A stretch of 55,179 bases of DNA from Ignavibacteriota bacterium (lineage in GTDB: Bacteria > Bacteroidota > Ignavibacteria > UBA10030 > SZUA-254). The notes beneath the pieces are model-generated. The model ran no database searches. It was not told the DNA's origin and was given only the letters and a program-made list of their open reading frames with translations. The DNA is taken from NCBI GenBank assembly GCA_025358305.1, contig JANYJZ010000031.1:1-55179 (forward strand), given 5' to 3'. The position numbers were made by a program, and so were the translations under genes. Within the stretch, counting starts at the first letter, position 1. Every line of letters begins with the position of its first letter. Positions 22,001 through 35,037 of this stretch are shown one piece after another.

Positions 22001-22629
22001 GCGTCCGGCGCGGCGTCCTGGGTGAATCCGCAACGTACATTGGTCCGAAGCTCGGAAGCTCCATCCGGCCCCAGGACGTGAAGATGTACATCGGCGGCAC
22101 GGATGCGAACTGCCTGACGACGTACGCGCTCAACGTGGGACCGCTCTCGGCGATCCTTGCGAATGCGTACGCGCCGAACGGAACGATCTCGCTCAATGAC
22201 TACACGCTTGCCTCCGGCGCATTCTACGCGAGGGTGGTCCGGCTCGGTCAGTCGGCGAACATCTGTATGGCATCGGCGTTCGAGGGCGCGCCCTCTATTG
22301 CCAAACCCACCGCGGAGATCCCTGCAGAAGACCTGTCGGCCGACCTGCCGACGAAGTACGCGCTCATGCAGAACTTCCCGAACCCGTTCAATCCGACGAC
22401 GATGATCCGGTTCTCTCTCCCGAAGGACAGCCGCGTCACGCTCTCCGTCTTCAACATCCTCGGCCAGGAAGTGACCCGTCTCGTCGATGAGATGAGGTCG
22501 CAGGGGAACTACGAGGTGGAATGGAACGGCCGCAACGCAAGCGGGATGGAACTCGGCACCGGCGTCTACTTCTACCGCATCAGCGCGGGAGAATTTGTGG
22601 ACATCAAGAAGATGCTCTTCATCAAGTAA
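16051..22629 (+). CDS. Giant T9SS-secreted protein with repeats, matrixin-type protease and VWA-like domain
   Basis: 2192 residues; AAGGA precedes the ATG. Order: signal peptide 1-21; beta-sandwich-like domain to ~187; seven to eight ~74-residue InlB-type repeats (188-795) with the core ITASSGLNGSISPSG; a CSLREAI-type beta-helix region (TSLREAI, ~797-1090); a matrixin-type zinc protease (~1153-1367) with HEAGHFGGLGD (His1308, His1312, Asp1318) and Met-turn MYG followed by KRTLDAGDINAINFMY; a VWA-like domain (~1370-1555); four ALKYQG repeats (1559-1582); a polymer-forming beta region; and a C-terminal type A sorting domain from NFPNPFNP to the end. Probably cell-surface or released. The VWA MIDAS is incomplete (DGSNP). 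Confidence 0.93.
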   Translation: MKKLTSLFILLFSLATSTLFGQPGQTLLPFKSSGYLYKFVGTTATEYTTLSFKNPASSESGYSSGSAAFGTLNPPSGPNCALNTTTNVKTTWSSSQAVLVRKHLSLPYGAKNLKITLSLDNSARVFLNGTEVTAGLQSHTTCATSTGDITLSVPDALVNKGDNLLAILGNWNSANNYLDAMVKGDLAYTITSRLTGNGSITPSGAVTVNAGGNQSVNLTPAAGYEADSLIVDGVNKPTATSYTFSGVDRDHDIRYTCRPTTYTITASSGLNGSISPSGAVKVNKNSTPTFTFTPAAGYHLVTLTVDGTSKPVAASYTFPSVTANHTISVTWAINSYTITASSGLNGSISPSGSVSANYGTTPMFTFTPSTGYHLSTLTVDGVSQSSAGSYTFPAIAANHSISVTWAINSYTITASSGLNGSISPSGNVSADYGTTPMFTFTPATGYHLATFTVDGVSQTLAASYTFPAVSADHAISVTWAINTYNIAASSGPNGSISPSGSVSADYGTTPMFTFTPATGYHLATLTVDGASQTLAASYTFPAVSADHAISVTWAINTYVITASSGLNGSIAPSGADTTNYGTTPTFGFTPATGYHIDSLFVDGASQPVDTAYTFVAVTADHTIRVTFAINTYIIAASAGPNGSIAPSGNVSANYGSTPAFTAQANADYHVDSLQIDGGGPGSVATSVTAPSQKVYTFAAVTQGHTINATFAQNSYALHAASDTDPATGDTTVGSALVQPAKPKYTPGDVVTLTAFAAPGYHFVAWIMPDGSRPFINPITIAMHSDTAVTAAFMPNVSQTIIVNTINDVVDSTDGLTSLREAITASNTNPGGDSVAFDIITGSTPGSKIIVLNQPLPIFTNPIVIDFSNLTDGTGAPLITLQPGYDTSAHPQSDGIELGGDFLPWGYTPQGSIIRGLNITGFPGSGICIHSNNNVIQKNVIFGNGANGVCIHDGNGNTVGNALATPNAGKGNTIRNNGFDGISVAEMSTIDLIPPPAGNTFLGNSIFTNGKLGIDLGGDGKVTPNKYPGGPTTPLIRPPVADAVNFRVNFPTINIATTADAGPSVIQGYLLSWRSTSFRIEVYRNDVGDASGFGEGKTLLGSTTVMTDDDSAYAWFVIPSSLPLAAGDLICATATDQYGNTSEFSDDFPAGLDTRIFQSSQYVINKTLSGIPLHWPDGKGLYNFAGSVGSSGFAAAVESSFSAWNQQAVKTDLSPNLFYKKVLPGNPTEQWGGYPDGINNVIWVSSNWSGITGGAPAAAIAVTRVRYNAYNGEMTDVDVAFDAENFTFGDATAPGAPTGIKDIGDVAVHEAGHFGGLGDIYNPGYPGWDIRMGSNNEHVTMYGIVKDDETEKRTLDAGDINAINFMYSHVQKSALDIVLLFDGSNPYNAFSPSKTSATELIRRMRPDDRVAVIKLPDTLVVPLTKIDSTNLTSVTNAIDGMTVGGSSSIGSGLLKGLDVLSVAVPNRRAMILYSSGEETGAPGALTAIPNLITAQTSVYTMGFSGSTGQALNSTLADTTGGNYFLAADTTVSLVVHEIWDELTGFQLVSDTGVFAGTATALKYQGALKYQGALKYQGALKYQGALDWDNGVNFEGNVDPGATEISPGLNWQGSVFTLFLIPPGYPIPTGFTDSAHIPSYVIRPENPPPGITYVQGPTFAFYKIKNPAPGTWTLHPEGANFGDPIPPKPEPVNINLISTTDVILKTVFAHDTYKPNQSIEFDVALSEGGSLVGGEHLSGGRPIDDATVVAHVTTPGSALALLLTLANTGNGNYHGSFGSTALNGTYTFEINASGTTPTIPEGFLRQSKQSVFVTPTLLNAVIFAADSVIMGNNARISSGSVLVNRNGLPTDPGAEMKIGTGVRTAAGYDLKAARIKIGSGSVIPSGVYYNQLTNAGTITGTLHTPLSLPVGTFPAFLTANASAETAPAYTLKSGKTATLAPGTYGDVTVQGAAILTLTPGVYHMRTLQVKSAGFVVFSGTGQIQIRVRRGVLGESATYIGPKLGSSIRPQDVKMYIGGTDANCLTTYALNVGPLSAILANAYAPNGTISLNDYTLASGAFYARVVRLGQSANICMASAFEGAPSIAKPTAEIPAEDLSADLPTKYALMQNFPNPFNPTTMIRFSLPKDSRVTLSVFNILGQEVTRLVDEMRSQGNYEVEWNGRNASGMELGTGVYFYRISAGEFVDIKKMLFIK
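16612..18434 (+). repeat. Tandem ~222-bp (74-residue) coding repeats
   Basis: Seven clear units and one degenerate unit, each built as YTITASSGLNGSISPSG, a short Gly/Thr turn, FTFTPATGYH, LTVDG, YTFPAV and H-x-I-x-V-T-W-A-I-N. Units 3-5 (about 17056-17720) are almost identical in DNA, indicating recent duplication or conversion; the outer ones have diverged. Matches the bacterial repeat of InlB type found in surface proteins. Confidence 0.85.
20725..20796 (+). repeat. Four perfect ALKYQG hexapeptide repeats
   Basis: Four 18-bp units encode ALKYQG exactly, then ALDWDNG. Codons alternate (GCC CTG / GCG CTC), so at DNA level the period is 36 bp. Located between the VWA-like domain and the following domain of the giant protein. 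Confidence 0.9.
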
Positions 22630-22703: not shown

Positions 22704-22758
22704 CGTTTCCCCGGACGGCCGCGCTATGACAGAAATCAAAAAAAATGTACATTGTGCC

Positions 22759-25700
22759 ATGAGATCCCACCCGCACGCCTCGGCCACCTCGGCGCCCCGG
22801 ACGTTGTTCCTCCTGGCGCTCCTCCTTTTCGCATCCTGCCTCCCCGCGGCGGCGCAGCAGGACATCTTCTTCCAGCACCTCACCGTCAAAGAGGGGCTTT
22901 CCCAGGGGAGCGTCATGTGCATGCTCCAGGACAGCAAAGGGTTCATGTGGTTCGGCACCCAGGACGGTCTCAACCGCTATGACGGATATGAATTCCGGGT
23001 GTACAAGCACGACCCGGCCGATCCCGCCTCGATCAACGACAACTTCATTCTCTTCATCGCGGAAGACAAGGCCGGCGCGCTCTGGTTCGGTACGCTCGCG
23101 GACCCTGACATCCTCAACCGGTTCGATCCAAAGACCGAGACGTTCACACCCGTGTCGCGCAAGGACGTCGACCTCAAGGGTGCGAAGATCGGCCAGTCAA
23201 AGAACACCTGCACCGACCCGTCGGGCGTCGAGTGGTCGCCGAACCCCGGCGGAGGCCTCGCGAGCGTGGACACGAAGACGGGGGCCAAGAAGGTCTTTAT
23301 GCACGACCCGAAGGACCCCGGCAGCCTTACCGACAACAAGGTCTACTCGATCGTGAGCGACCACACCGGAAAACTCTGGATCACGACAAAGGGAGGCCTC
23401 GACCGGTTCGATCAGCGGACCGGGACTTTCATCCACTACCGTCACGACGACAAGAACCCACGGAGCCTCTCGGACAACTTCGTCTGGCCGCTCCTCGAGG
23501 ACCGTTCCGGCGCCCTCTGGGTGGGGTCGTTCATCGGCGGCCTTGACCGGTACGACCGCGAGAGCGACAGCTTCACTCGGTACCGCCACGACGAATCGAA
23601 CCCGCGGAGCCTTTCCAGCGACGCCCTGTACTCCCTCGCCCAGGACGCCTCCGGCATCATCTGGGTCGGCACCGGAGACCACGGAGTCGACCGGTTCCAT
23701 CCGGAGCTCTCGAGCTTCACCCATTACATGAAGGCCGCATCGGGAACGAATACGCTCTCGGACAACGTTATTCTCTCCATGCACGTCGATCATACCGGAA
23801 CGGTCTGGCTCGGAACGAACAGCGGCCTGAACCGTTTCGACCGGAAGACAGGGACCTTTACCATCTACCGGCACAACCCGGCCGACGCCCGGAGCATCGC
23901 CGAGGACGGAGTGCAGACGATCCTCGAGGACCGCTCCGGCGCCCTCTGGGTCGGCACTCTCACGAGCGGTCTCGACCGCTTTGACCGGTCGACCGGCGTG
24001 TTCACGCACTTTAAGAACTCCCTTGCGGATCCGAAGAGCCTCAGCGACAATCGCGTCTATTCACTCTGCGAGGACCGCCGCGGTGACCTCTGGGTCGGCA
24101 CGATCGGAGGCGGGCTCTGCCGGCTTGACAAGACGTCGGGGACGTTCACGACGTATCGGCACAGCGACGCGGATCCGAAGAGCCTCGGCGCGGATGACGT
24201 CTGGTCGCTCCTCGAGGACAAGAACGGCGCCCTGTGGGCCGGGACGTTCGGTGGCGGGCTCGACCGCTTCGAACGCGCCTCCCGGACGTTCACCCATTTT
24301 GTGCACAGCGACTCCGTGGCATCGAGCTTGAGCGACAATGTGGTCCTCACGCTTTGTGAGGACCGTTCCGGCACCCTCTGGGTCGGAACGAACAATGGCT
24401 TGAGCAAGTTCCTCCCGGAGTCCGGCACCTTTGCGCATTACCGCGAGAAGGAGGGCCTCCCGAACGTCGTTATCGTCGGCATCGTAGAGGACGACGCGAG
24501 CAACCTCTGGATCAGCACGAACAAGGGGATCTCGCGATTCACGCCGGGCGAAGGAAAGTTCCGGAACTACACCTACAGCGACGGCCTCCAGGCCGACGAG
24601 TTCAACCCGGCATCTGCGAAGGACCTCGTCACTGGAGAGATCTTCTTCGGCGGTCCGAACGGCTTCAACGTCTTCCATCCCGATCGGATGAAGGACAACC
24701 CGTACGTCCCCCCGGTCGTCTTCAGCTCGTTCGTGCGGTACAACTCCGACGACGCCGAAGGCAAGCCGATCGAAGACCCGGGCATCGACACGAAGCCGGA
24801 GATCACGCTCTCCTACAAGGACAACGTCGCGAACTTCCGTTTTGCGGCGCTCAACTACTATAATACGAGCCACAACCGGTATGCCTACCGGCTGGAAGGG
24901 TACAGCGAGAACTGGATCCAGCTCGGGACGGACCGCCTCGCGACGTTCACGAACCTCGACGCGGGCACCTACACGCTCCGGGTGAGAGGCTCGAACAACA
25001 ACAACGTGTGGAACAACGAGGGCGCCTCCTTGCAGATCGTCGTCACTCCGCCCTGGTGGCGGACGACATGGGCGTACGGAGCGTACGCCGTCATGATCCT
25101 CGCGTTCCTCTACACCGCACGCCGTATCGAGATCAACCGCAGGGACCAGAAGGCGAAGATCCGGGAATCGCAGCTCCACGCGAAGGCGATCGAGGCCGAA
25201 AAGCGCGCCCTCGAGGCGGAGAACGAGCGGCAGACGAAGGAACTCGACGACGCGCGCAACCTGCAGCTCTCGATGCTCCCGAAGGAGGTCCCGAAACTCC
25301 CCGAATACGACATCTCTGTCTTCATGAAGACCGCGACCGAGGTCGGCGGCGACTATTACGACTTCCGCATGACCCCCGAAGGGGTCTTGAGCATCGCATT
25401 CGGCGACGCGACAGGCCACGGGATGCAGGCCGGCACGATCGTGACGCTCATGAAGGGGCTCTTCATCTCCGACGGCTCCAGGACCGACATCCAGAGCTTT
25501 TTCAACCACTGCAGCCGCGCCATCAAGGAGATCAAACTCGGCCGATTATACATGGCCCTCACACTTGCGCGGATCAACGGAAAAGCCGTATCTTTATCAA
25601 GCGCGGGGATGCCGCCGGCGTACATCTTTCGGGACGCGGACGGAGCGGTCGAGGAGATCCTCCTCAAGGCCGTTCCCCTGGGCTCCATGAAGAACTTCCC

Positions 25701-25950
25701 CTATTCGCTTTACGAGACGACGATGGAGAAGGGGGACACTCTCCTTCTCCTCACCGACGGCCTTCCGGAGCAGAAGAATGCGAGCGAGGAGATGTTCGAC
25801 TACGCGAGGATCATCGACTCGTTTAAGGAGAGCGCCCGGAGCGCCCCCGCGGACGTCATCGCGCGGCTCGTGAAGGACGGCGACGAGTGGATGCAAGAGG
25901 CGGTCCAAGACGACGACATCACGCTCATGGTCATCAAAAAGACATCATAA
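22759..25950 (+). CDS. Propeller/Y_Y_Y sensor fused to PP2C-type phosphatase
   Basis: 1063 residues from ATG 22759, which begins just ahead of a signal peptide (TLFLLALLLFASCLPAAAQ); an in-frame ATG at 22726 is the alternative. Residues ~30-645 hold about twelve two-component-regulator propeller blades (repeats of LEDRSGALWVGT and GGLDRFDR). Then Y_Y_Y domain (~650-760), one membrane helix (~772-788), coiled coil, and a SpoIIE-type phosphatase (835-1063) with GGDYYDF, GDATGHGM, TDGLPE and DDITLMV metal ligands. Hybrid sensors of this shape usually end in a histidine kinase; here the output is Ser/Thr dephosphorylation of a STAS partner (inference from the next genes). Stop overlaps the next ATG (TAATG). 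Confidence 0.93.
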   Translation: MRSHPHASATSAPRTLFLLALLLFASCLPAAAQQDIFFQHLTVKEGLSQGSVMCMLQDSKGFMWFGTQDGLNRYDGYEFRVYKHDPADPASINDNFILFIAEDKAGALWFGTLADPDILNRFDPKTETFTPVSRKDVDLKGAKIGQSKNTCTDPSGVEWSPNPGGGLASVDTKTGAKKVFMHDPKDPGSLTDNKVYSIVSDHTGKLWITTKGGLDRFDQRTGTFIHYRHDDKNPRSLSDNFVWPLLEDRSGALWVGSFIGGLDRYDRESDSFTRYRHDESNPRSLSSDALYSLAQDASGIIWVGTGDHGVDRFHPELSSFTHYMKAASGTNTLSDNVILSMHVDHTGTVWLGTNSGLNRFDRKTGTFTIYRHNPADARSIAEDGVQTILEDRSGALWVGTLTSGLDRFDRSTGVFTHFKNSLADPKSLSDNRVYSLCEDRRGDLWVGTIGGGLCRLDKTSGTFTTYRHSDADPKSLGADDVWSLLEDKNGALWAGTFGGGLDRFERASRTFTHFVHSDSVASSLSDNVVLTLCEDRSGTLWVGTNNGLSKFLPESGTFAHYREKEGLPNVVIVGIVEDDASNLWISTNKGISRFTPGEGKFRNYTYSDGLQADEFNPASAKDLVTGEIFFGGPNGFNVFHPDRMKDNPYVPPVVFSSFVRYNSDDAEGKPIEDPGIDTKPEITLSYKDNVANFRFAALNYYNTSHNRYAYRLEGYSENWIQLGTDRLATFTNLDAGTYTLRVRGSNNNNVWNNEGASLQIVVTPPWWRTTWAYGAYAVMILAFLYTARRIEINRRDQKAKIRESQLHAKAIEAEKRALEAENERQTKELDDARNLQLSMLPKEVPKLPEYDISVFMKTATEVGGDYYDFRMTPEGVLSIAFGDATGHGMQAGTIVTLMKGLFISDGSRTDIQSFFNHCSRAIKEIKLGRLYMALTLARINGKAVSLSSAGMPPAYIFRDADGAVEEILLKAVPLGSMKNFPYSLYETTMEKGDTLLLLTDGLPEQKNASEEMFDYARIIDSFKESARSAPADVIARLVKDGDEWMQEAVQDDDITLMVIKKTS

Positions 25951-26381
25951 TGCAGGAACCCCCGATGCAGAAAGTGGTAACAATGAAGATCGAACTTCCG
26001 AGGATCCCCGACATCGAGCTCGTGGCCCTCGAGGGGCTTGACCGCCTCTCCCGGCACATGGGCATTTCCGAGGAGAAGGTGGGGGAAGCACGGCTCATCG
26101 TGACGGAGGCGATCATCAACGGCCTGGAGCATGGGGGGGACGTCAGCCCAAAGGTCGACGTCGAGTTCACCATGACGAAGAAGGAACTCACGATCTTCGT
26201 CCGGGACTACGGCAAGGGGTTCGAACCCTCGACCGTCGAACGGCCCGACATCAACAAGAAGTTCGGCACCGGCCACAAGCGGGGCTGGGGCCTCCAGATC
26301 ATGAAGTCAATGTCGGACGATTTCCGGATCGACTCGAACCACGGCGGGACGAGGATCACCATCAAAAAGCTCTTGAGTTAA
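25950..26381 (+). CDS. RsbW-like anti-sigma/switch kinase
   Basis: 143 residues. ATG shares a base with the previous stop (TAATG); further in-frame ATGs at residues 6 and 11 are possible. HATPase_c_2 domain with N-box LIVTEAIINGLEHG, G1 box VRDYGKGFEP and G2 GHKRGWGLQIMKSM. The family phosphorylates a STAS antagonist and sequesters a partner such as a sigma factor. With the STAS gene ten bases downstream and a phosphatase on each side, this is a complete partner-switch cassette. Confidence 0.9.
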   Translation: MQEPPMQKVVTMKIELPRIPDIELVALEGLDRLSRHMGISEEKVGEARLIVTEAIINGLEHGGDVSPKVDVEFTMTKKELTIFVRDYGKGFEPSTVERPDINKKFGTGHKRGWGLQIMKSMSDDFRIDSNHGGTRITIKKLLS

Positions 26382-26390
26382 GGGGGGACC

Positions 26391-26738
26391 ATGGAACAGT
26401 CATTTTCACTCACGTCGGAACTGCGGCAGAACCGCCTCGTCATCGTCACGTCGGGCTACATCAACAACATCGGCGGGGAAGCGATCGCGAAGGAGTTCGA
26501 CAAGCACTTCGCCAACAACGTCAAGGAGATCGTCATTAACCTCGAGCAGTCGAAGGTCGTGAACTCCATCGGCATGTCGTTCCTCCTGGAGATCATCGAG
26601 CAGCTTCATGACGTGCAGGGGAAGGTCGTCTTCACGAATATGGACCCCGCGGTCGAAAAGATGCTCACCATCATGGGGCTCTTCGAGTTCGCCGGCAAGG
26701 CCGCGAACGTCGACGACGCCATGAGATCATTCTCCTGA
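26391..26738 (+). CDS. STAS anti-sigma factor antagonist
   Basis: 115 residues with a strong GGGGGGA before the ATG. STAS fold: VIVTSGYINNIGGEAI, EIVINLEQSKVVNSIGMSFLL and a C-terminal helix. Ser59 in VNSIGM sits where SpoIIAA-type proteins are phosphorylated. Probably phosphorylated by the upstream kinase and dephosphorylated by the PP2C proteins at either side. Confidence 0.9.
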   Translation: MEQSFSLTSELRQNRLVIVTSGYINNIGGEAIAKEFDKHFANNVKEIVINLEQSKVVNSIGMSFLLEIIEQLHDVQGKVVFTNMDPAVEKMLTIMGLFEFAGKAANVDDAMRSFS

Positions 26739-26752
26739 ACCGCCCCGGACCC

Positions 26753-28363
26753 GTGGCAGGCACGTCGCAGATATCGCGCGAGGCGCTCCTCGACCGGCTC
26801 TCCGTCCAGAGCGCCGCCGTCCAGGAAAGCCTGCGGAAGCTCCCGAAGACCCCCACCCTTAAGGACCTTGCCGGCCAGTTCGCCGCAGGATTCCGACCGC
26901 TCTTCCCCGGGGCGGGCGTGGACATCGCCCACCGCCTTTCCGGCGCGCCCACCTGGGAGTTCATCGTCAAGAGCGGCGCACCGGACGCCGAACGGCGGTT
27001 CTCGTTCGGCGAGACGGAAGCGTCGCACGGCTCGCATGAGACCCCGGGCTGCCTCGCGTTCGTCCACCCGCTCTCTGACGGCTCGCGCGTCGGCCTCGCG
27101 CTTTTGATGAACGCCCCCGCGGGAGGCTACACGGAGTTCGATCTCGCCTCGTTCCGACTCTTTCTCCATCTCTATGATCAGGCTTATCAAGAGATGCTCT
27201 CGCGGAAGAACGAGAAAGGACTCGTCTTCTCGATGAACCACCGAATATTGCAGCTCAACAGCCTCATCGATACGGGCATCGAGGTGGCGAGCCTCGACTT
27301 CGGAGATTCCCCGCACAAGCTCGCGCTCGTCCGGGCCGCATCGCTCGCGAACGCCTCGCGCGGCATCGTCCGCCTCACCAGCGGCGGCGAGGTCCGGGAA
27401 ACCCACACGTTCCCCGAAGGCGCCGCGGTCACCGTCTCGGCGAACAGGATCACGAGCAGCTTCTCGTTCTCGGGCGACACCTATGCCTTCGAGCTCTTCG
27501 ACAAGGAGAGCCGTTCGGGGCCCGGGCCGTTCGAAGAGACGGACCAGCTCCTCCTCGACGCCCTCGCGCGCCAGGTCCACGCGGCCATCGAGAACCGGCA
27601 CCTCCATCAGCAGGCCCTCCAGAACGAGCTCCTCGAGCAGGAGATGAACGTCGCCGCGGCGATCCAGAAGAAGATCATCCCGGTGTCGCTCCCGAAGATC
27701 GCCGGATACGACATCGCGGGCGTGAACATCCCCTCGAAGTCGATCGGCGGGGATTACTACGACTGCATTCCCCTGCGCGACGGCAGGTATGCGCTCGTCG
27801 TCGCCGACGTCACGGGCAAGGGCATCCCGGCGGCGCTCCTCGTCAGCAGCCTTCACGCCTATCTTTCCGCCTATCTCGAGGGCGAGCAGCTGCTTGCCGA
27901 TCTCGTCTCGCGGCTCAACAAGGTGCTCTTTCGCGCCTCCACGCCGGACAAGTTCGTCACCGCGTTCATCGCACTCCTCGACCCCGCGACGGGGGAACTC
28001 GAATGCGTCAATGCCGGCCACAACCCGAGCTACGTCCTCGCCACTGACAGGACCATCCGCGAGCTCCGCTTCGGCGGCCTTCCTCTCGCCTCGTTCGACC
28101 TCGACATCCCCTATACGAGCGAGCAGGCCAGGCTCGCGAAGGGGGAGCGGCTCTTCCTCTACACGGACGGCGTCACCGAGGCGGAGAACGAACGACACAA
28201 GCTCTACGAGGAGGAGGTCTCCATCACCGAGTTTCTCGCGAAGCACGCGACGGGCACCGGGGAGGAGTTCATCGCTCGCCTGATCGCCGACGTCCGCCGG
28301 TTCACCGGATCCGCGCCTCAAAGCGACGACATCACCGCCCTCTATCTCCACCGGCTGCCGTAG
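26753..28363 (+). CDS. Cytosolic PP2C (SpoIIE/RsbU-type) phosphatase with N-terminal sensor region
   Basis: 536 residues, GTG start at 26753, 14 bases after the STAS gene. Residues 1-~290 form an unrecognised, GAF-like alpha/beta region; a coiled coil (about 285-305) leads to the phosphatase with AAIQKKIIPVSLP, SKSIGGDYYD, VVADVTGKGIPAALL, NAGHNPSYV, LYTDGVTEA and SDDITALYL. All metal-ligand Asp positions are kept. No membrane segment, so it probably senses a cytosolic signal and feeds the same switch as the membrane sensor upstream (inference). Confidence 0.9.
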   Translation: MAGTSQISREALLDRLSVQSAAVQESLRKLPKTPTLKDLAGQFAAGFRPLFPGAGVDIAHRLSGAPTWEFIVKSGAPDAERRFSFGETEASHGSHETPGCLAFVHPLSDGSRVGLALLMNAPAGGYTEFDLASFRLFLHLYDQAYQEMLSRKNEKGLVFSMNHRILQLNSLIDTGIEVASLDFGDSPHKLALVRAASLANASRGIVRLTSGGEVRETHTFPEGAAVTVSANRITSSFSFSGDTYAFELFDKESRSGPGPFEETDQLLLDALARQVHAAIENRHLHQQALQNELLEQEMNVAAAIQKKIIPVSLPKIAGYDIAGVNIPSKSIGGDYYDCIPLRDGRYALVVADVTGKGIPAALLVSSLHAYLSAYLEGEQLLADLVSRLNKVLFRASTPDKFVTAFIALLDPATGELECVNAGHNPSYVLATDRTIRELRFGGLPLASFDLDIPYTSEQARLAKGERLFLYTDGVTEAENERHKLYEEEVSITEFLAKHATGTGEEFIARLIADVRRFTGSAPQSDDITALYLHRLP

Positions 28364-28411
28364 ACAGCCCAAGCGGGCGCATTTCGCGGGCGGAAGGGGC
28401 GAAAACCATAG

Positions 28412-28440
28412 TTGACATTTGTTCCCCATATTCATACACT
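28412..28440 (+). promoter_or_regulatory. Promoter of the second kinase/STAS/sigma group
   Basis: TTGACA (28412-28417), 17 bases, TACACT (28435-28440). Start predicted near 28447; leader of about 135 bases to the ATG at 28584. This shows that the second half of the island can be transcribed on its own. Confidence 0.72.
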
Positions 28441-28583
28441 ATTTTGTTCGGAATGATCCTCTGGGGAGGCGTTCATCCGCATTCCGGGCGCACAGGGACG
28501 CCGCCAAACGATCCGACACGAGCGTCCTTCCCACACGAGCGGGAACACACGACCAAGAACCATCACGATCCTCTTGACGACCG

Positions 28584-28988
28584 ATGGAGAGACGCTTTTC
28601 ACGGAGCATTCACGCGCTCGGCGAGATCTTTGAGTTCGCCGACGAATACTCCATCGCACACGGCATCCGCCCTCCGGTGCTCTTTGCGATGAAGTTCGTC
28701 ATTGAGGAGCTCTTCACGAACATGGTGAAGTACAGCGTCAGCGACACCGGCAGCGACATCGGCATCGATCTGGAGAAGGACGATCACCGGGTCACGGTGC
28801 GGCTCATCGATTCGGGCGTCGACGCGTTCGACGTGACGCGCGCCGACGACGCCGACGTGACCTTGAGTCTGGAGGACCGGAAGGTGGGCGGACTGGGCCT
28901 CCATCTCGTCAAGCGCATGGTGGATTCGATTGAGTATGAATACGGCGGGAGGAAAAGCGTCATCACGTTCTCAAAGAAACTGGAGTAA
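28584..28988 (+). CDS. Second RsbW-like switch kinase
   Basis: 134 residues. HATPase_c_2: N-box VIEELFTNMVKYS, G1 region LIDSGVDAFD, then LSLEDRKVGGLGLHLVKRMVD and a closing strand KSVITFSK. The G1 box has DSGVDAFD instead of DxGxGF, a form common in stand-alone SpoIIE-family kinases. Ends five bases before the second STAS gene. Likely to act on that STAS protein and on a sigma or other client; whether the ECF factor downstream is the client is unknown. Confidence 0.88.
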   Translation: MERRFSRSIHALGEIFEFADEYSIAHGIRPPVLFAMKFVIEELFTNMVKYSVSDTGSDIGIDLEKDDHRVTVRLIDSGVDAFDVTRADDADVTLSLEDRKVGGLGLHLVKRMVDSIEYEYGGRKSVITFSKKLE

Positions 28989-28993
28989 CCCCT

Positions 28994-29278
28994 ATGTTCG
29001 ACACGAAGTCAGCAGAAAACGGCGACATCCAGCTCATCGGACGCCTCGATGCGTCGCAGACGGAAAAGGCGAATGTCGTCCTCAACCAGATCATGACCTC
29101 CCGGACGCTCGACTGCAAGGACCTGGAGTACATCTCCAGCGCCGGGCTGGGGGTCCTCCTGGCGACCCAGCAGCGCCTCAAAGCCGCCGGACACGGCCTC
29201 CGTTTGACGAATTTGAACAAACATATACGCGATATCTTCATGTTTACCGGTTTTGAGAAGATATTTACGATAGATTAG
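28994..29278 (+). CDS. Second STAS antagonist protein
   Basis: 94 residues; GGAG overlaps the stop of the kinase gene. Short STAS domain: IQLIGRLDASQTEKANVVL, LDCKDLEYISSAGLGVLLATQQ. Ser49 in SSAGLG is the expected phosphorylation site. Partner of the kinase at 28584-28988 by adjacency. Confidence 0.9.
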   Translation: MFDTKSAENGDIQLIGRLDASQTEKANVVLNQIMTSRTLDCKDLEYISSAGLGVLLATQQRLKAAGHGLRLTNLNKHIRDIFMFTGFEKIFTID

Positions 29279-29319: not shown

Positions 29320-29859
29320 ATGAAAGAGGGCAACGACACGCAACTTGTCAGCGAGTGCCTGAACGGCGACCGAAAGGCGTTCGAAGCGGTTGTGGACAAA
29401 TACCAAAAACCCCTATTTAATGCGGCATTTCGGATCCTCGGAAGCGCCGCCGATGCCGAAGAGGTCACGCAGATCGCATTCATCAAGGCATTCGAGGGTT
29501 TGCGGAGCTTCAATCGGGGAAGCAAGTTCTTCAGCTGGCTCTACCGGATCGCAGTGAATGAATCGTTGAATTTCCGCCAAGCGCGGCGCAGACACGAACC
29601 GGTCGACGAGCAGACCCCCTCGAAACACGATATGCCCGACACGGTCTACGGGCACCAAGAGCTTCAGGCGACCATCGAAGAAGCCCTCGGCAGAATGAAG
29701 GACGAATACCGGGTCGTCATCGTGTTGAGACACTTCCAGGACTGCTCGTACGATGAGATGAGCGAGATCCTCGGCATACCGGCGAACAGGGTAAAATCAC
29801 GTTTGTTTTCCGCCCGGCAGCAGCTCCGGGAACTTCTACCAGAACATGGAATCGTATGA
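29320..29859 (+). CDS. ECF-type RNA polymerase sigma factor
   Basis: 179 residues from ATG 29320 (TTG at 29299 rejected). Sigma-2: KPLFNAAFRILGSAADAEEV, FIKAFEGLRSF and FFSWLYRIAVNESLN. Sigma-4: YRVVIVLRHFQDCSYDEMSE then IPANRVKSRLFSARQQL. No Shine-Dalgarno is seen; the sequence AACTT, 15 bases, GTAC just before the ATG (about 29296-29319) resembles an ECF promoter and could mean a nearly leaderless autoregulated transcript (weak). The stop overlaps the anti-sigma start (ATGA). Confidence 0.93.
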   Translation: MKEGNDTQLVSECLNGDRKAFEAVVDKYQKPLFNAAFRILGSAADAEEVTQIAFIKAFEGLRSFNRGSKFFSWLYRIAVNESLNFRQARRRHEPVDEQTPSKHDMPDTVYGHQELQATIEEALGRMKDEYRVVIVLRHFQDCSYDEMSEILGIPANRVKSRLFSARQQLRELLPEHGIV

Positions 29860-30917
29860 CACACGAACAGATCACTGAACTCATGCACCGCGACATCGAC
29901 GGCGAGAATTCTCCTGTGGAGAGCGCATCGCTTCGCCAGCACCTTGCGGCGCACCCGGACGAGCAGAAGCAGTTCGCCGAGCTTCAGGAGCTTTCCCGGA
30001 TGCTCGCGTCGGTCCCGGCGCTGGAACCCTCGCAGAATCTAAAGAAGCACGTCATGAACAGCGACGCGGTCCGATCGTACCAGCCCGGACGCAAGGGCGC
30101 CCGCAGCTTTCTCTCGATATTCCAAACCACACCACACACTTCATTTCATCACAATCCACAAGAGGGTCACATGAAACAACAGCACAAACTCATCTTCGGC
30201 GGCATCGCAGCCGTTGTTGCCGTGGTTGTCTACGCTTCGCTCATCTATCCCTGGCCCGCGACTCCCGATGCGGTCGGAACGATCGGCGGCGTGAAGAAGT
30301 ACCACGCTGACCAGATCACGGACAATGACGTAAAGGTCAACAACGGACAGAATGCAACGATCGAACCCGGCACCGCGAACGACAATTCCGTCGTCGAGCA
30401 CCAGGCGTCCCTGTTCCGGAACGCTCCGGTCGACCGGCAGATCCAGTTTTTCCGGGCCGCTCCGATCGACATGCAGGCGTCGCTCCTGAAGTCCGCTCCG
30501 CTCGACATGCAGGCACGGTATTTCCGTCTCGCGTCGATCGACATGCAGGCGAAATTCTATCAGTCCGCTCCTCTGGACATGCAGGCGTCGCTTCTGAAGT
30601 CCGCTCCTCTGGACATGCAGGCGCGCTTCTACCGGTCGGCCCCCATCGACATGCAGGCATCGCTCCTGAGGTCCGCTCCGCTTGACATGCAGGCGAAGTT
30701 CCTCAAGGCGGCGTCGCTCAATATGTCGGCCGCGGCTTTCAAATCCGCACCGATCGCGAAGCAGGCAGAGCTCTTCCGTTCCGCTCCGCTGGACATGCAG
30801 GCATCGCTCCTGAAGTCGGCCCCACTCGACATGCAGGCGTCGCTCTACCGCTCCGCACCGCTCGATATGCAGCAGCAGCTCGAGCGCACGGTGAGCCTGG
30901 ACGCAAAGCAGCGTTAA
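29856..30917 (+). CDS. Transmembrane anti-sigma factor with dodecapeptide-repeat ectodomain
   Basis: 353 residues; ATG overlaps the sigma stop (ATGA), the usual arrangement for a cognate anti-sigma factor. Residues 1-75 look like an anti-sigma domain (MHRDIDGENSPVESASL, AAHPDEQKQFAELQELSRML) without the zinc HxxxCxxC. Membrane helix ~112-130. Residues 182-349 are fourteen 12-residue repeats, consensus MQASLLKSAPLD. A low-GC stretch and GAGGG before an internal ATG at 30171 suggest a second start just ahead of the membrane helix. The repeat domain is predicted to be outside the cytoplasmic membrane and to sense the signal (inference). Confidence 0.88.
   Translation: MTHEQITELMHRDIDGENSPVESASLRQHLAAHPDEQKQFAELQELSRMLASVPALEPSQNLKKHVMNSDAVRSYQPGRKGARSFLSIFQTTPHTSFHHNPQEGHMKQQHKLIFGGIAAVVAVVVYASLIYPWPATPDAVGTIGGVKKYHADQITDNDVKVNNGQNATIEPGTANDNSVVEHQASLFRNAPVDRQIQFFRAAPIDMQASLLKSAPLDMQARYFRLASIDMQAKFYQSAPLDMQASLLKSAPLDMQARFYRSAPIDMQASLLRSAPLDMQAKFLKAASLNMSAAAFKSAPIAKQAELFRSAPLDMQASLLKSAPLDMQASLYRSAPLDMQQQLERTVSLDAKQR
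30399..30902 (+). repeat. Fourteen tandem 36-bp repeats coding a dodecapeptide
   Basis: Exactly 14 units of 12 codons with no gap. Most units read M-Q-A-[SRK]-[LYF]-[LYF]-[KR]-S-A-P-[LI]-D. Units 2, 5 and 11 are identical in protein. Variants: unit 9 MSAAAFKSAPIA, unit 10 KQAELFRSAPLD and unit 14 MQQQLERTVSLD. Asp/Met caps and an Ala-Pro break every 12 residues suggest short amphipathic helices stacked in a solenoid. Confidence 0.95.
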
Positions 30918-30964
30918 GCGTCTGAACGACCGGCGGCGCGCCGCCATCAGAGTGAGTGTAGAAG

Positions 30965-31002
30965 GCAAGAGGGGACAAAATTTGTTCCCTCTTGCTTTTT
31001 TT
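30965..31002 (+). terminator. Terminator of the sigma/anti-sigma transcript
   Basis: 15-bp stem with one G-U pair (GCAAGAGGGGACAAA against TTTGTTCCCTCTTGC), one unpaired base in between, then T7 at 30996-31002. Confidence 0.92.
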
Positions 31003-31031
31003 ATGTCGTTCTTTTACGTATACTGTGAAAC

Positions 31032-34019
31032 ATGTTCTCACCCAGCGAACATCGGCATCCCCCCCACACGCGCCACCGGAGGCCCCACGTACGCCGCCCG
31101 GCAACGCTCGTTCTCGCGCTCCTCTGGCTTGCCGCAGCGGGCAGCGCACAGCTCTCCACATACCAAACAAAGGACATGCGCCTCGTATGGTTCGGGAGCG
31201 AGAGTGCGTACCTCATGCCGCACGTCGGCCGATGCTTCGAGAACTCCCTGCGGTTCCACCGGAAGCTCTTCGACTACACGCCGAGCGAAGAGATCACCGT
31301 ATTCCTCCACGACATGAACGACTACGGCTCCGGCGGCACGAACTCCATCCCCTGGAACTACCTCAACGTCGGCATCGAGCCGTTCGATTACGTCTACGAG
31401 ACCTGTCCGACGAACGAGCGGATGAACTGGATGATGAACCACGAGCTCGCGCACGTCGTCGACCTCGACAAGGCCGCCCCGAGCGACCGCTTCTTCCGCT
31501 CCATCTTTTTCGGGAAGGTCGCCCCCACGTCGGAGAATCCTGTCTCCATGATGTACAGCTACCTCACGAGCCCCCGCTACTACTCCTCGCGTTGGTTCCA
31601 CGAGGGCATCGCGGTATTTCTCGAGACGTGGATGGCGGGCGGCATCGGCCGGACTCTCGGCGGCTATGATGAGATGGTCTTCCGCGCCATGGTTCGTGAC
31701 AGCACGTACTTCTATGACTTTGTCGGACTGGAGTCCGAGGGAAAGACCATTGATTTTCAGGTGGGGGCAAACTCCTACCTCTACGGCACGCGCTTCGTGA
31801 GCTACCTTGCCATCCACGACGGCCCCGAGAAGATCCTCCAGTGGTTCAACCGTTCCGATTCGAGCAGCGCCTACTTCGCGACGCAGTTCGAGCGCCTTTA
31901 CGGCCTCCCCCTCGACGAGGCCTGGACGCGCTGGATCGCGTCGGAGCACGAGTGGCAGCGTGCGAACCTCGATTCGATACGGAAATATCCGCTCACGCCC
32001 GAGCGCCCGATCGTCGACCGGGCACTCGGCTCGGTGTCACGCGCATTCTACGACTCTTCGGCCGGGAAGGTCTTCCTCGCAGTCAACTACCCGGGTGCGA
32101 TCGCGCACGCCACCGCCATTGACCTCCGGACGGGGGCCGCGAACGACCTCTGCGACATCCCGACCCCCACGCTCTACTACGTCGCGTCGCTCGCGTACGA
32201 CGATTCCGCGAAGTCGCTCTTCTACACGACGCACAACAGCAACCTCTGGCGGGATCTCAATGTCGTGGACGTCCGGACTGGAGAATCGAAGCTCCTCATC
32301 AAGTATGCCAGGGCGGGCGACCTCGCCTTCAACAAGGCCGACCATTCCCTCTGGGGCGTCCGCCACCACAACGGATACTCATCTCTCGTCCGGATACCGC
32401 CGCCGTACGCGAACGTCTACGAGATCCAGCAGCTCGAGTATGGCAAGGACATCTACGACCTGGACATTTCGCCGGACGGCACGACGATGATCGCCTCGTA
32501 CATCCAGATCAACGGCCGGCAGCAGCTCGTCACGATCGACCTGACGAAGCTCCTCCAGGGCGCGCCGAACGTGGCGGTCCTCTACGAGTTCGAGAACAAC
32601 GCGCCGGAGAACTTCACCTTTTCGCCCGACGGCCGGTATCTCTACGGCACGTCGTACTTTACCGGCGTGTCGAACGTCTTCCGGTGGGATTTCGCAACGA
32701 AGAAGATGGAGGCGGTGTCGAACTGCGAGACCGGGTATTTTCGTCCGCTGTGCGTCGGCCGCGATTCGCTCCTCGTCTTTCGGTACACCGGCAGCGGGTT
32801 CCGTCCGGTCGTCATCCCCGTGGCGGTCCGTGAGGACCTGAGCGCCATCAAGTACCTCGGCCAGGAGATCGTCGAACGGTACCCGGTCGTCAAGTCGTGG
32901 AACGTCGGCTCCCCCCTCTCGGTGAACATTGATTCGCTCAAGACCTACGCGGGGGACTACCAGGGGTTCGGGGCGGTCGGCCTCGCGTCGATCTACCCAG
33001 TCGTTCAGGGATATAAGAATGTCGCCTCGTACGGCTTCCACATGAGCCTCGCCGACCGGATCGGGCTCCACGGCATCGACGCGACGGCGACCTACTCGCC
33101 GAACCGGGACCTATCCCAGGACGAGCGCGTCCATCTCGCGCTCGAATACCGCTACTGGAACTGGAAGTTCGGCGCCACATACAATGCCTCCGATTTTTAC
33201 GACCTCTTCGGTCCCACCAAGACGAGCCGCAAGGGATATTCCCTCTCGTCGAGCTATACGAACTCTCTCCTCAACGACAAGCCCGCAACGCTCGACTACA
33301 CGGTCTCAGCGACGGGCTATGGCGGGCTCGAAGTGCTCCCCGATTTTCAGAACGTGAGCGCAAGCTACGACAAATTCGGCATCGTGAGCGGCGCCCTCCG
33401 GTACAAGTATCTCCTCCGGACGATCGGTGCCGTGGATTACGAACGGGGGTTCCAGTGGAGCCTCGACGAGACGAACACGCTCGTCCGGTCGACGCTCTAC
33501 GCGCGCGCGCGCGCGTCCTTCGACGTCGGCGTGCCGCTCCCCGTCGACCACGCCACGCTCTGGCTCCGGAGCTCCGCCGGCTATTCGCCCGGGGACCGGA
33601 ATAATTCGTTCGCGAACTTCTATTTCGGCGGATTCGGCAACAACTGGGTGGACTACCAGGAGGTAAAGCGGTACCGGTCGTACTACAGCTTCCCCGGGAC
33701 CGATCTCAACGAGGTCGGTGGAACGAACTTCGGCAAGCTCATGCTCGAGCTCTCGCTGCCGCCGGCGCGGTTCAAGCGCTTCGGCATCCCGAACTTCTAC
33801 TGCACCTGGTCGCAGCTCACGCTCTTCACCGCGGGCCTCGCGGTGAACGTGGACGACGAGGCGCTCCGCCAGAAGCTCCTGAGCGTCGGGGCCCAGGCGG
33901 ACTTCCGGTTCGTTCTCTTCACGAGCCTCGAGTCGACGCTCTCCCTCGGGTGCGCCGCCGCGTTCGAGCGGGGCATCCCGGCGAGGAACGAACTCATGAT
34001 CTCTCTCAAGATCCTCTGA
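31032..34019 (+). CDS. Gluzincin-type peptidase, beta-propeller and outer-membrane barrel in one chain
   Basis: 995 residues. Signal-like segment (TLVLALLWLAAAGSAQ) after a His/Arg-rich start. Residues ~40-300: metallopeptidase with NHELAHVVDLDK and, about 50 residues later, FHEGIAVFLE supplying the third ligand. Residues ~320-620: TolB/PD40-like propeller (DISPDGTTMIAS, TFSPDGRYLYG). Residues ~690-995: alternating aromatic strands typical of an outer-membrane barrel (LALEYRYWNWKFGATYNASD, SLGCAAAFERGI). Barrel-tethered peptidases of this kind are known in Bacteroidota, with unknown substrates. TATACT at 31019-31024 could be its -10. Seventeen bases before the PrsW-like gene. Confidence 0.85.
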   Translation: MFSPSEHRHPPHTRHRRPHVRRPATLVLALLWLAAAGSAQLSTYQTKDMRLVWFGSESAYLMPHVGRCFENSLRFHRKLFDYTPSEEITVFLHDMNDYGSGGTNSIPWNYLNVGIEPFDYVYETCPTNERMNWMMNHELAHVVDLDKAAPSDRFFRSIFFGKVAPTSENPVSMMYSYLTSPRYYSSRWFHEGIAVFLETWMAGGIGRTLGGYDEMVFRAMVRDSTYFYDFVGLESEGKTIDFQVGANSYLYGTRFVSYLAIHDGPEKILQWFNRSDSSSAYFATQFERLYGLPLDEAWTRWIASEHEWQRANLDSIRKYPLTPERPIVDRALGSVSRAFYDSSAGKVFLAVNYPGAIAHATAIDLRTGAANDLCDIPTPTLYYVASLAYDDSAKSLFYTTHNSNLWRDLNVVDVRTGESKLLIKYARAGDLAFNKADHSLWGVRHHNGYSSLVRIPPPYANVYEIQQLEYGKDIYDLDISPDGTTMIASYIQINGRQQLVTIDLTKLLQGAPNVAVLYEFENNAPENFTFSPDGRYLYGTSYFTGVSNVFRWDFATKKMEAVSNCETGYFRPLCVGRDSLLVFRYTGSGFRPVVIPVAVREDLSAIKYLGQEIVERYPVVKSWNVGSPLSVNIDSLKTYAGDYQGFGAVGLASIYPVVQGYKNVASYGFHMSLADRIGLHGIDATATYSPNRDLSQDERVHLALEYRYWNWKFGATYNASDFYDLFGPTKTSRKGYSLSSSYTNSLLNDKPATLDYTVSATGYGGLEVLPDFQNVSASYDKFGIVSGALRYKYLLRTIGAVDYERGFQWSLDETNTLVRSTLYARARASFDVGVPLPVDHATLWLRSSAGYSPGDRNNSFANFYFGGFGNNWVDYQEVKRYRSYYSFPGTDLNEVGGTNFGKLMLELSLPPARFKRFGIPNFYCTWSQLTLFTAGLAVNVDDEALRQKLLSVGAQADFRFVLFTSLESTLSLGCAAAFERGIPARNELMISLKIL

Positions 34020-34035: not shown

Positions 34036-35037
34036 ATGACGATCCAGATCCTCATCAGCGTCCTGCCGGTTCTCCTCTTCCTCGGGGCGCTCATCATCCT
34101 CGACAGCTTCAAGCTCCTCGCGCTCCGGTCCGTCATCATCATGATCCTCGCTGGCTGCGCCGCCGCGTGGACAAGCCTCGCCATCACGACAGCGATCCTT
34201 TCTCGGACCTCCGCGAATGAGGTGCTCTACTCGCACTACGCCGCCCCGGCCATCGAAGAGACGCTCAAGGCCGCATTCGTCGTCTACCTCATCCGATCGA
34301 AACGGGTCGGCTTCATGGTGGACGCCGCGATCTGCGGGTTCGCGGTCGGCGCTGGGTTCTCGCTCATCGAGAACGTCTACTACCTCCAGGCGGTGGTGGG
34401 ATCAAGCATCCTTCTCTGGGTCGTTCGGGGGTTCGGGACGGCGGTCATGCACGGAGGCACGACCGCGATGTTCGGGATCCTCGCGAAGAACCTCTCGGAC
34501 CGCTACCCCGACCACGCCGCGGCCGTCCTCGTTCCGCCGCTTCTCATGGGCATCGTCATCCACGCCCTCTTCAACCACTTTTTTCTGCCGCCGATCCTCG
34601 AGACGGTCCTCCTCGTCACGGTCCTTCCCGCGCTCCTGTTCGTCATCTTCCGGCAGAGTGAGGAGTCGACGCGGACATGGCTCGGCATCGGGCTCGACGC
34701 CGACATGGAACTTCTCGGGCTCATTACCACCGGCGGGCTCTCGGAGTCGCCCATCGGGTCGTACCTCCACTCCTTGCGAGAACGGTTCCCGGTAGAGATT
34801 ATCGTCGACATGCTCTGCCTCCTGCGCCTCCACACGGAGCTCGCCATCCGCGCGAAGGGGATCCTCATGATGCGCGAACTCGGGTTCAAGACCGAATCCG
34901 GGCCGGAGGTCATGGAGAAGTTCACCGAGCTCCGGTTCCTCGAGAAGAGCATCGGCCCGACCGGTAAACTCGCCATCGCACCGTTCCTCAGAACGACGAG
35001 CAGGGACCTCTGGCAGATTTACATGCTTCAAACATGA
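34036..35037 (+). CDS. PrsW-type intramembrane metalloprotease
   Basis: 333 residues. Eight or so membrane segments in the first 215 residues. Family motifs: APAIEETLKAAFV (Glu-Glu pair), GFAVGAGFSLIENVYY and VMHGGTTAMFGI, with a further His in IHALFNHFF. A C-terminal ~115-residue soluble domain (SYLHSLRERFPVEIIVDMLC onward) is unusual. PrsW in Bacillus makes the first cut in anti-sigma RsiW. Lying three genes after a sigma/anti-sigma pair, this enzyme is a good candidate to cut the repeat-bearing anti-sigma factor (inference). Confidence 0.88.
   Translation: MTIQILISVLPVLLFLGALIILDSFKLLALRSVIIMILAGCAAAWTSLAITTAILSRTSANEVLYSHYAAPAIEETLKAAFVVYLIRSKRVGFMVDAAICGFAVGAGFSLIENVYYLQAVVGSSILLWVVRGFGTAVMHGGTTAMFGILAKNLSDRYPDHAAAVLVPPLLMGIVIHALFNHFFLPPILETVLLVTVLPALLFVIFRQSEESTRTWLGIGLDADMELLGLITTGGLSESPIGSYLHSLRERFPVEIIVDMLCLLRLHTELAIRAKGILMMRELGFKTESGPEVMEKFTELRFLEKSIGPTGKLAIAPFLRTTSRDLWQIYMLQT

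Follow-up and report, generated by a model that had tools for sequence, protein, structure and literature searches.

A predicted anti-sigma domain joined in frame to a membrane-anchored tandem-repeat protein in an Ignavibacteriota bacterium

Introduction

The window considered here is the whole of a 55,179-nucleotide stretch of contig JANYJZ010000031.1 (assembly GCA_025358305.1) from an Ignavibacteriota bacterium. On its forward strand an open reading frame (ORF) at 29856–30917 encodes 353 amino acids; its ATG start lies in the ATGA by which it overlaps the end, at 29859, of an upstream ORF for an extracytoplasmic function (ECF) sigma factor. It joins in frame a predicted anti-sigma domain to a membrane helix and an array of 12-residue repeats, which in many relatives belong to a separate protein. 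The interpretation proposed, for which belief and doubt are about evenly balanced, is that the ORF is a fusion of an anti-sigma factor with the periplasmic repeat partner of a 995-residue protein encoded next to it, adopted for the release of the sigma factor under control of a PrsW-family protease.

The fused protein

Residues 182–349 (30399–30902) consist of exactly 14 units of 12 residues without a gap, just as an initial annotation of this DNA had described: 14 uninterrupted 12-codon units following a membrane helix in an ORF that overlaps an ECF sigma gene. The commonest residues of the units, column by column, are MQASL[FL]RSAPLD; the consensus first proposed, MQASLLKSAPLD, occurs literally three times. 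Autocorrelation at lag 12 gave z = 21.4, compared with a largest z of 4.5 in 300 shuffles. A sequencing or assembly artifact was ruled out, since the gene order is repeated in other genomes. The units share 62% identity in DNA and 54% in amino acids, with dS 1.09 and dN 0.41; codons for the same residue are near random (z 1.2 for adjacent units, 2.8 for all lags), and the longest exact DNA repeat is 26 bases (17–26 after permutation). The divergence of the units in DNA, together with near-random codons at shared residues, suggests that the array is mostly old and maintained at the protein level, not the product of recent slippage.

One hydrophobic segment, at about residues 112–132, precedes the array, with positive charge on its N-terminal side; here and below, membrane helices and signal peptides are visual assignments, not the output of a predictor. 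The N-terminal domain resembles zf-HC2, the anti-sigma models of NCBIfam (NF052375 with E 7.4e-6, below its cut-off) and an RsiW chain, each weakly. Its anti-sigma identity, already suspected in the initial annotation, gains support from a hidden Markov model (HMM) of the family (E 1.7e-28) and from the overlap with the ECF sigma gene. Residues 1–70 contain no cysteine and hence no HxxxCxxC zinc motif, and class I anti-sigma factors without that motif are described in PMC7406223. Comparison at this level supports an RsiW-like class I anti-sigma domain, predicted to bind and inhibit the sigma factor.

The AF2 model of the membrane-anchored part has 14 helices joined by two-residue turns (pLDDT mostly 68–84 in the array and <50 before it), in keeping with the stack of short helices that had been expected from the sequence. 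When this single-sequence model was compared with known folds by VIA, the top eight rows were all MgtE cytosolic-domain chains (Z 12.1–9.5), followed by FliG (9.1 and 8.3), with all others at or below 7.4. The best match, with Z 12.1, rmsd 2.7 and 120 aligned residues, falls in the range (Z under about 13) in which, as VIA warns, repeats may reflect only a common arrangement. The best Foldseek match had E 0.014, and a sequence search of the PDB with the array gave nothing better than E 0.1. The MgtE_N profile (PF03448) matched the ORF with 41.2 bits against a gathering cut-off of 25.9 (E 2.6e-10), and the array alone with E 2.1e-11. Nine decoys were made by permuting the 12 columns of the unit in the same way throughout the array, and five of them also matched MgtE_N at E < 0.02: one with 1.6e-17, better than the real array, one with 2.6e-10 and three at 0.004–0.014. 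The profile match may therefore come from 12-residue helical periodicity alone and is no proof of descent. The earlier remark that the repeat has no named counterpart thus stands in part: predicted fold and profile do resemble the helix stacks of the MgtE_N and FliG type, but the periodicity may account for the profile match. No pair of CBS domains and no MgtE channel domain was matched in the ORF. Cytosolic magnesium sensing of the MgtE kind was ruled out, because a membrane helix with N-terminal positive charges precedes the array and a channel domain is lacking.

Profile matches were no more specific in relatives. The 39 members discussed below matched 77 Pfam families, nonsense included, and 45 in NCBIfam; with the decoy matches to MgtE_N, this led to the dismissal of Pfam E-values of the arrays as evidence. 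STI1-HOP_DP (PF17830) was matched in eight of the 39, though not in the window protein, and in all three scanned ORFs of the four from a second class, with E down to 5.4e-19; such repeat-driven E-values are unreliable.

Fused and separate repeat proteins in relatives

An anchor profile comprising the membrane helix and the motif GTIGG..KKY...Q..DKDV was positive in 28 of 98 genomes of the order, with one copy each, in 37 of 391 genomes drawn from the class (26 belonging to the order), and in 11 of 395 drawn from the phylum, four of these outside the class. The loci studied number 43, of which 39 are from the class (the main class) and four from a second class. One member, L018, is a Bacteroidetes metagenome-assembled genome, identical to G067. 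The arrays of G050, G119 and G128 stop at contig edges, and G050 was excluded from the period scan.

In 15 of the 39 main-class loci the anti-sigma profile matched within the repeat protein's own ORF, in 22 it matched a different ORF of the locus, and in two (G231 and G284, which are unscorable) it matched nothing; in the second class the two parts are fused in all four loci. Overall, 41 loci can be scored: 22 with a separate repeat protein and 19 with an in-frame fusion. The anti-sigma domains of G041, G119 and G145 were among those missed by plain blast and recovered by HMM. Where the anti-sigma factor is separate, it has in the alignment its own membrane helix and a different ectodomain. 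The initial annotation had taken the repeat for the inherent sensing ectodomain of the anti-sigma factor. That view is not supported by these 22 relatives, homologues without this C-terminus in which the repeat has a gene of its own and the anti-sigma factor another ectodomain, one of the outcomes that the annotation itself had named as refuting.

Sister pairs differ in fusion state: G013 is separate and G014, of the same genus, fused, and the same holds for G054 and G041, G075 and G070, and G067 and the pair G000 and G012. Fitch parsimony required seven switches on a concatenated tree of 39 taxa (mean 11.5 and minimum 7 when labels were shuffled), six on a concatenated tree of 43 taxa, nine on the sigma factor alone (40 taxa) and seven on the 995-residue protein alone (37 taxa). 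From the differing sister pairs and the six to nine switches, the window ORF is apparently one among several independent fusions of two adjacent genes. Once formed, fused clades persist, in five species of one genus and in the four genomes of the second class.

In the separate anti-sigma factors, such as that of L061 beginning at 8090, the ectodomain starts after the helix with GT[MIL], resembling the GTIG of the repeat protein. This likeness was scored by hhalign with probability 83 and P 8.7e-6; it is perhaps a common protease or partner site, perhaps only membrane-helix composition or chance.

Turnover of the repeat unit

The repeat unit differs widely among the 39 members. The period is 9 residues in 18 members, 12 in six (G000, G012, G041, G049, G068 and G119, the last with a top lag of 37 and 12 second), 25 in three (G007, G009, G010), 22 or 23 in two (G013, G014), 26 in two (G070, G075), 16 in G008 and 6 in G067; four have none (G231, G167, G360, G243), one is doubtful (G284) and one is cut. 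The four members of the second class have a period of 9. Three of their loci (L099–L101) carry long arrays of SPDFSRLMA-type 9-mers matching STI1/ubiquilin profiles, perhaps through repetition alone.

The array can be replaced while its surroundings are kept. Between G008 and G010 the sigma factor is 94% identical, the anchor 82% and the 995-residue protein 66%, whereas the arrays, with periods of 16 and 25, are 24% identical. Within one genus with sigma factors 72–77% identical, the arrays are 22–55% identical and include several kinds of 9-mer and a 12-mer. Other pairs have kept theirs: the arrays of G034 and G035 are 98% identical and of equal length, and those of G009 and G010 66% identical with a sigma identity of 62%. 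Close relatives with sigma factors 87–94% identical also keep array length, at 191 and 191 residues in one case and 293, 293 and 296 in another (G062, G063, G064); a fourth member of the latter group, G065, contains an N, after which the frame is lost. The suggestion that unit number varies between strains to tune binding finds no support in this constancy among close relatives, none of which are genomes of one species. Arrays alike in some pairs and unlike in others indicate, as far as alignments can tell, that an array lasts over short evolutionary distances and is exchanged in the longer run, at a pace that varies. Those not cut by contig ends span 186–419 residues.

The age of the arrays is also uneven. 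In G008 a recent DNA duplication is visible (codon z 6.0 for adjacent units). Over all lags, 12 of 22 arrays exceed two standard deviations (11.0 in G128, 5.4 in G008, and the 2.8 of the window), and 13 of 22, the window not among them, contain an exact DNA repeat above the 95th percentile of permutations. Local re-duplication is thus indicated in many, and the statement that all arrays are old would be too simple. Active scrambling of codons against recombination, suggested by NG86 pS values > 0.75, was ruled out, as codon identity between adjacent units is within two standard deviations in 18 of 22.

The 995-residue neighbor

The protein encoded downstream carries an HExxH motif at about 31440–31454, present in 37 of 37 aligned orthologues. 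In 33 orthologues, Pfam matches at E ≤ 0.01 were to PD40 in seven (best 1.5e-8), Omp85_2 in five (0.0013) and Peptidase_MA_2 in three (8.9e-5); the best PDB match of the family profile was TolB, E 0.028. The protein is probably located in the outer membrane.

Strong orthologues (E < 1e-90) are present in 31 of the 98 order genomes, including all 28 that are anchor-positive. In the class draw, the protein was found in 65 of 391 genomes (E ≤ 1e-60), and the anchor in 36 of the 65. The remaining 29 belong mostly to a diverged subfamily with 31–36% identity; ten of them were cut by contig ends or lay outside the examined set. In 16 of the 19 examined, a different tandem-repeat gene lies directly upstream of the distant orthologue, mostly with 16-residue units of the ELGSRYG type, e.g., SQLDELGARYMFVRSG (most of the array of G201 reads N). 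These genes begin, whenever the fetched DNA reaches their start, with a signal-peptide-like sequence in place of the anchor, and the 16-residue unit is conserved between genera. The secreted-looking products (L104:5032-5760 on the minus strand, L103 at a contig end, L108–L124) are small, and some of their arrays are near-identical in DNA; by eye they seem to share a V-E-x-A-x-R-Y-R stretch with the anchor motif. G352 has a second copy of the 995-residue protein (G352:C19:957-3743), 33% identical, besides its own 49% identical one.

The pair of repeat gene and 995-residue protein also exists without the sigma system, as G056 and G057 gave no sigma, anti-sigma, RsbW or PrsW match in the 12 and 5.6 kb fetched. 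Judged by gene neighborhoods, the association is strong but not strict, and for that reason the repeat protein is assigned to the 995-residue protein first and to sigma control second. A module of this kind can vary within a genus: G011, 99% complete and of the same genus (g9) as G010, is without anchor and 995-residue gene at the thresholds used, and by gene content the module has been lost or gained there.

Internal start and terminator

Where the repeat gene of relatives begins, the window ORF has an in-frame internal ATG. A strict Shine-Dalgarno (SD) core, defined as GGAGG or AGGAG, precedes the start of the repeat gene in 32 of 39 loci, compared with 32 of 2133 other internal in-frame ATGs (1.5%) and 34 of 285 ATGs that open long ORFs. 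For the strict count the start codon of each repeat gene was picked by hand among candidates, and the comparison across all genes admits any candidate. Under a looser rule the counts are 32 of 39 for the repeat gene, 0 of 33 for RsbW, 5 of 37 for STAS, 0 of 35 for sigma, 1 of 31 for anti-sigma, 1 of 22 for the 995-residue protein and 1 of 29 for PrsW. Among fused ORFs the strict core is found in 14 of 15 from the main class and in none of the four from the second, 14 of 19 combined. The anti-SD sequence of the source genome is standard (one match).

Directly behind the repeat gene lies an intrinsic terminator, visible by strand folding and not listed by a scan for sigma-70 promoters and terminators. 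Of the 35 loci in which the sequence extends far enough, 22 have a hairpin-plus-T terminator stronger than -15 kcal/mol behind the repeat gene (shuffled sequences: 8 of 175), and the hairpins of the 22 loci differ in sequence; five other genes gave 2 of 33, 1 of 34, 1 of 36, 0 of 29 and 1 of 28. From the strong SD and strong terminator, it is inferred that in most main-class species the repeat protein would be made alone and in quantity; for the window this is doubtful.

The gene cluster

The features of the region are collected in Table 1. The ECF sigma gene was listed as an ORF beginning at TTG 29299 and has an ATG at 29320. In the 39 loci, neighbors were matched in 34 (RsbW), 37 (STAS), 36 (sigma), 33 (995-residue protein) and 29 (PrsW), with loss at contig ends not discounted. 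The catalytic residues of PrsW (EExxK, E, H, H) are kept in 32 of 32 aligned sequences, and with the HExxH of the 995-residue orthologues both proteases look intact.

Table 1. Coordinates in the window of the fused ORF's parts and of neighboring features
Feature	Position	Strand	Basis
Reg_prop + Y_Y_Y + SpoIIE phosphatase, RsbU-like, near the cluster	22726..25950	+	Pfam; SpoIIE relatives in 13/38 loci
RsbW-like anti-sigma/serine kinase (HATPase_c_2)	28584..28988	+	Pfam E 6.3e-18; blast match in 34/39 loci
STAS anti-anti-sigma, RsbV-like	28994..29278	+	Pfam; TIGR00377 56.3 bits (cut-off 53.45); 37/39 loci, three short or weak
ECF sigma factor, SigW/RpoE-like	29320..29859	+	Pfam region 2 E 1e-15, region 4 E 9.3e-14; TIGR02937 103.2 bits (cut-off 42.9)
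Predicted cytoplasmic anti-sigma domain, RsiW-like, no cysteines	29856..30065	+	Family HMM E 1.7e-28; RsiW chain E 0.019
In-frame internal ATG where relatives' repeat gene begins; upstream AAGAGGGTCAC, weak ribosome-binding site	30171..30173	+	
Single membrane helix	30189..30251	+	Hydrophobicity by eye; kept in family alignment; AF2 helix, low confidence
Juxtamembrane motif GTIGGVKKYHADQITDNDV, conserved	30276..30332	+	Alignments; helix-plus-motif profile in 28/98 order genomes
Repeat array, 14 x 12-residue units, predicted single-helix stack, probably on the extracytoplasmic side	30399..30902	+	Unit alignment, AF2 model, fold comparison
Intrinsic terminator directly 3' of the repeat gene	30956..31004	+	-28 kcal/mol, z -8.1; counterparts in 22/35 loci
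995-aa protein: gluzincin-like part, TolB-like propeller, Omp85-like C-terminal part; signal peptide by eye	31032..34019	+	
PrsW-family intramembrane protease	34036..35037	+	PF13367 E 1.3e-18, 67.7 bits (cut-off 23.5)

Next to the ECF sigma/anti-sigma pair, at 22726–29278, lie genes for partner switching: RsbW, STAS and a SpoIIE-type phosphatase that carries a sensor propeller. Farther upstream, at 16051–22629, is a gene for a 2192-residue protein that combines eight stretches of InlB B-like repeats with a VWA domain and a weakly matched type IX secretion tail. It contains 222-bp tandem units at 16834–18016, and a short 18/36-bp tandem repeat (AAGTACCAGGGAGCGCTC) lies at 20725–20801, inside the large surface protein. 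PADLOC gave no matches.

Proposed mechanism

In the mechanism envisaged, an RsiW-like anti-sigma domain has been joined to a single-pass protein anchored in the inner membrane, with a C-terminal tandem array of short helices. The repeat protein would be primarily a periplasmic, extended helical partner, tether or substrate in contact with the 995-residue protein of outer-membrane type. The anti-sigma factor here would have lost its own anchor and ectodomain and would rely on the repeat protein for both. Whether the array is bound, assembled or cut would decide the exposure of the anti-sigma factor to the PrsW-family protease; cleavage by PrsW, followed by site-2 proteolysis, would destroy the anti-sigma factor and free the ECF sigma factor. 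A further extension is conceivable but doubtful. In many species one gene would give two products, an abundant plain subunit from the internal start and a rarer anti-sigma-tagged subunit from the upstream start, built together into shared assemblies as a readout of the envelope scaffold through the ECF sigma factor; the array would be swapped repeatedly on a fixed anchor beside a lasting 995-residue partner, and the module would be previously undescribed.

Several observations weigh against the proposed mechanism. The AF2 model has a pTM of 0.39 and was made from a single sequence. For the L018 protein the prediction is of long helices and then a disordered tail of 6-mers, so the helix stack is not universal among members. 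No conserved C-terminal domain that could dock to the outer membrane follows the array in the 39 members by eye; their last 45 residues are unlike, and the periodic arrays extend nearly to the C-terminus. G289, G300 and G306 have the 995-residue gene and readable upstream DNA with no repeat gene there, and G360, with a weak anchor match and no detectable repeats, has no 995-residue protein in its genome at E up to 1e-10. A strong terminator separates the repeat gene from the 995-residue gene. Finally, the window is the only exception among main-class fused ORFs in lacking the strict SD: the duplex of AAGAGGGTCAC is -6.3 kcal/mol, an energy matched or bettered by 18% of the 282 internal ATGs within genes of the window, compared with -7.4 to -13.8 in the other 14, and because of this weak SD the free repeat protein may not be made here. 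On balance the class-wide survey leaves the odds of the mechanism where they were: 16 of 19 examined genomes favor it, and 3 of 19 and G360 are exceptions.

Alternative explanations

As first proposed, the array could serve the anti-sigma factor as an ectodomain devoted to sensing a ligand or stress, its response tuned by the number of units. The fusion is real here and in 19 of the 41 scorable loci, and in the second class, all fused and with no strict SD in its four loci, the fusion may be the sole product. This explanation is nevertheless judged unlikely in view of the 22 loci that carry the array in another protein, the strong internal SD for the repeat protein alone in 14 of 15 main-class fused ORFs and the stable array length in close relatives. 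Also improbable is a pure spacer, for which the array need only be long, soluble and mostly helical, separating the anchor from the outer-membrane side with its sequence free to change. Periods and sequences do vary while length holds at 186–419 residues, similar to the 110–335 given for TolA domain II in passages of PMC12204202. The units, however, are alike in protein while synonymous positions are largely randomized, which points to selection on unit sequence; a terminal docking domain is missing, and the 16-residue unit of the distant 995-residue subfamily is conserved between genera.

The fusion might also be an accidental read-through after loss of the 3' part of the anti-sigma gene, the internal start making the only functional repeat protein. 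The internal SD of the main-class fused ORFs, so rare at other internal ATGs, is what this would predict, but it would leave the anti-sigma domain otherwise unanchored in the membrane, the fused clades persist (five species of one genus and the four second-class genomes), and the window has a weak SD and the second class none that fits the strict definition. Read-through is judged very unlikely. STI1 and ARM repeats are short amphipathic helices that form hydrophobic grooves. An array of that kind could act like a chaperone or peptide-binding protein, holding envelope clients for the metallopeptidase/barrel protein, or could itself be processed by that protein. STI1-HOP_DP matches in eight of 39 members and in all three scanned second-class ORFs fit such a role, which is still judged very unlikely: with 77 families matched and decoys matching too, profile matches of the arrays are unreliable, and the window protein has no STI1 match.

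Comparison with known systems

The regulated-proteolysis switch in the proposed mechanism is itself of a known kind. The ectodomains of RsgI proteins are diverse. Clostridium thermocellum has several of these membrane anti-sigma factors, which respond to different substrates and undergo intramembrane cleavage by RseP, according to PMC12203970. The window ORF is likewise predicted to be a membrane anti-sigma factor, but unlike RsgI, its own ectodomain has been exchanged for a whole neighboring membrane protein, whose repeat is replaced between species. As in SigW-RsiW-PrsW of Bacillus subtilis, where PrsW is described as the site-1 protease of RsiW (PMC3482391), an ECF sigma factor is followed by an RsiW-like domain before one membrane helix, with a PrsW-family protease in the cluster. 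Unlike that system, the cluster here also has the repeat protein, the 995-residue protein and genes of RsbW, STAS and SpoIIE type, and a predicted helix stack replaces the ectodomain. In groups of class I anti-sigma factors the fused domains are reported to be strikingly conserved (PMC7406223), whereas here the fused part is exchanged.

TolA has an N-terminal membrane helix and a long periplasmic domain of variable sequence (passages in PMC12204202), and the number of repeats in tolA is reported to vary among Escherichia coli strains and to alter stress tolerance (PMC3477136). The repeat protein resembles TolA and TonB in its N-terminal membrane helix and long, variable and probably periplasmic part, and its 995-residue partner has a TolB-like propeller by weak matches; it differs in having, by eye, no C-terminal globular domain after the array and in being fused to or beside an anti-sigma domain. 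The SHLS motif of the TolA/TonB helix, as given in PMC12204202, was not seen by eye in the 39-row anchor alignment. With the MgtE N domain and the ARM-like stacks of FliG the predicted model appears to share a stack of short helices with 12-residue spacing; unlike MgtE, it has 14 helices and no CBS or channel domain, and the likeness may be no more than a common arrangement, with decoys also matching the profile and Z under about 13. A periplasmic stack of this type, FlgY of Campylobacter, is described as forming dimers and higher oligomers (PMC11870540), which gives a precedent for helix stacks outside the cytoplasm that are able to oligomerize.

Significance

No paper on this protein family, and no description of the exchange of an ectodomain for a neighboring repeat protein or of the replacement of repeats on a fixed anchor, was found in the openly licensed literature. 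About 40 genomes provide a natural series in which the same anchored protein carries different units, from which the properties of the array that must stay (length, helicity, groove or self-assembly), and those free to vary, may be learned. A PrsW-type cassette would gain a new partner of outer-membrane type, and the L018 member places it in an uncultured Bacteroidetes genome. If the proposed mechanism is true, a signaling protein has repeatedly taken a neighboring membrane protein as its sensor, losing its own 3' part and stop codon, and the fusion may let the stress control of the cell read the state of the envelope.

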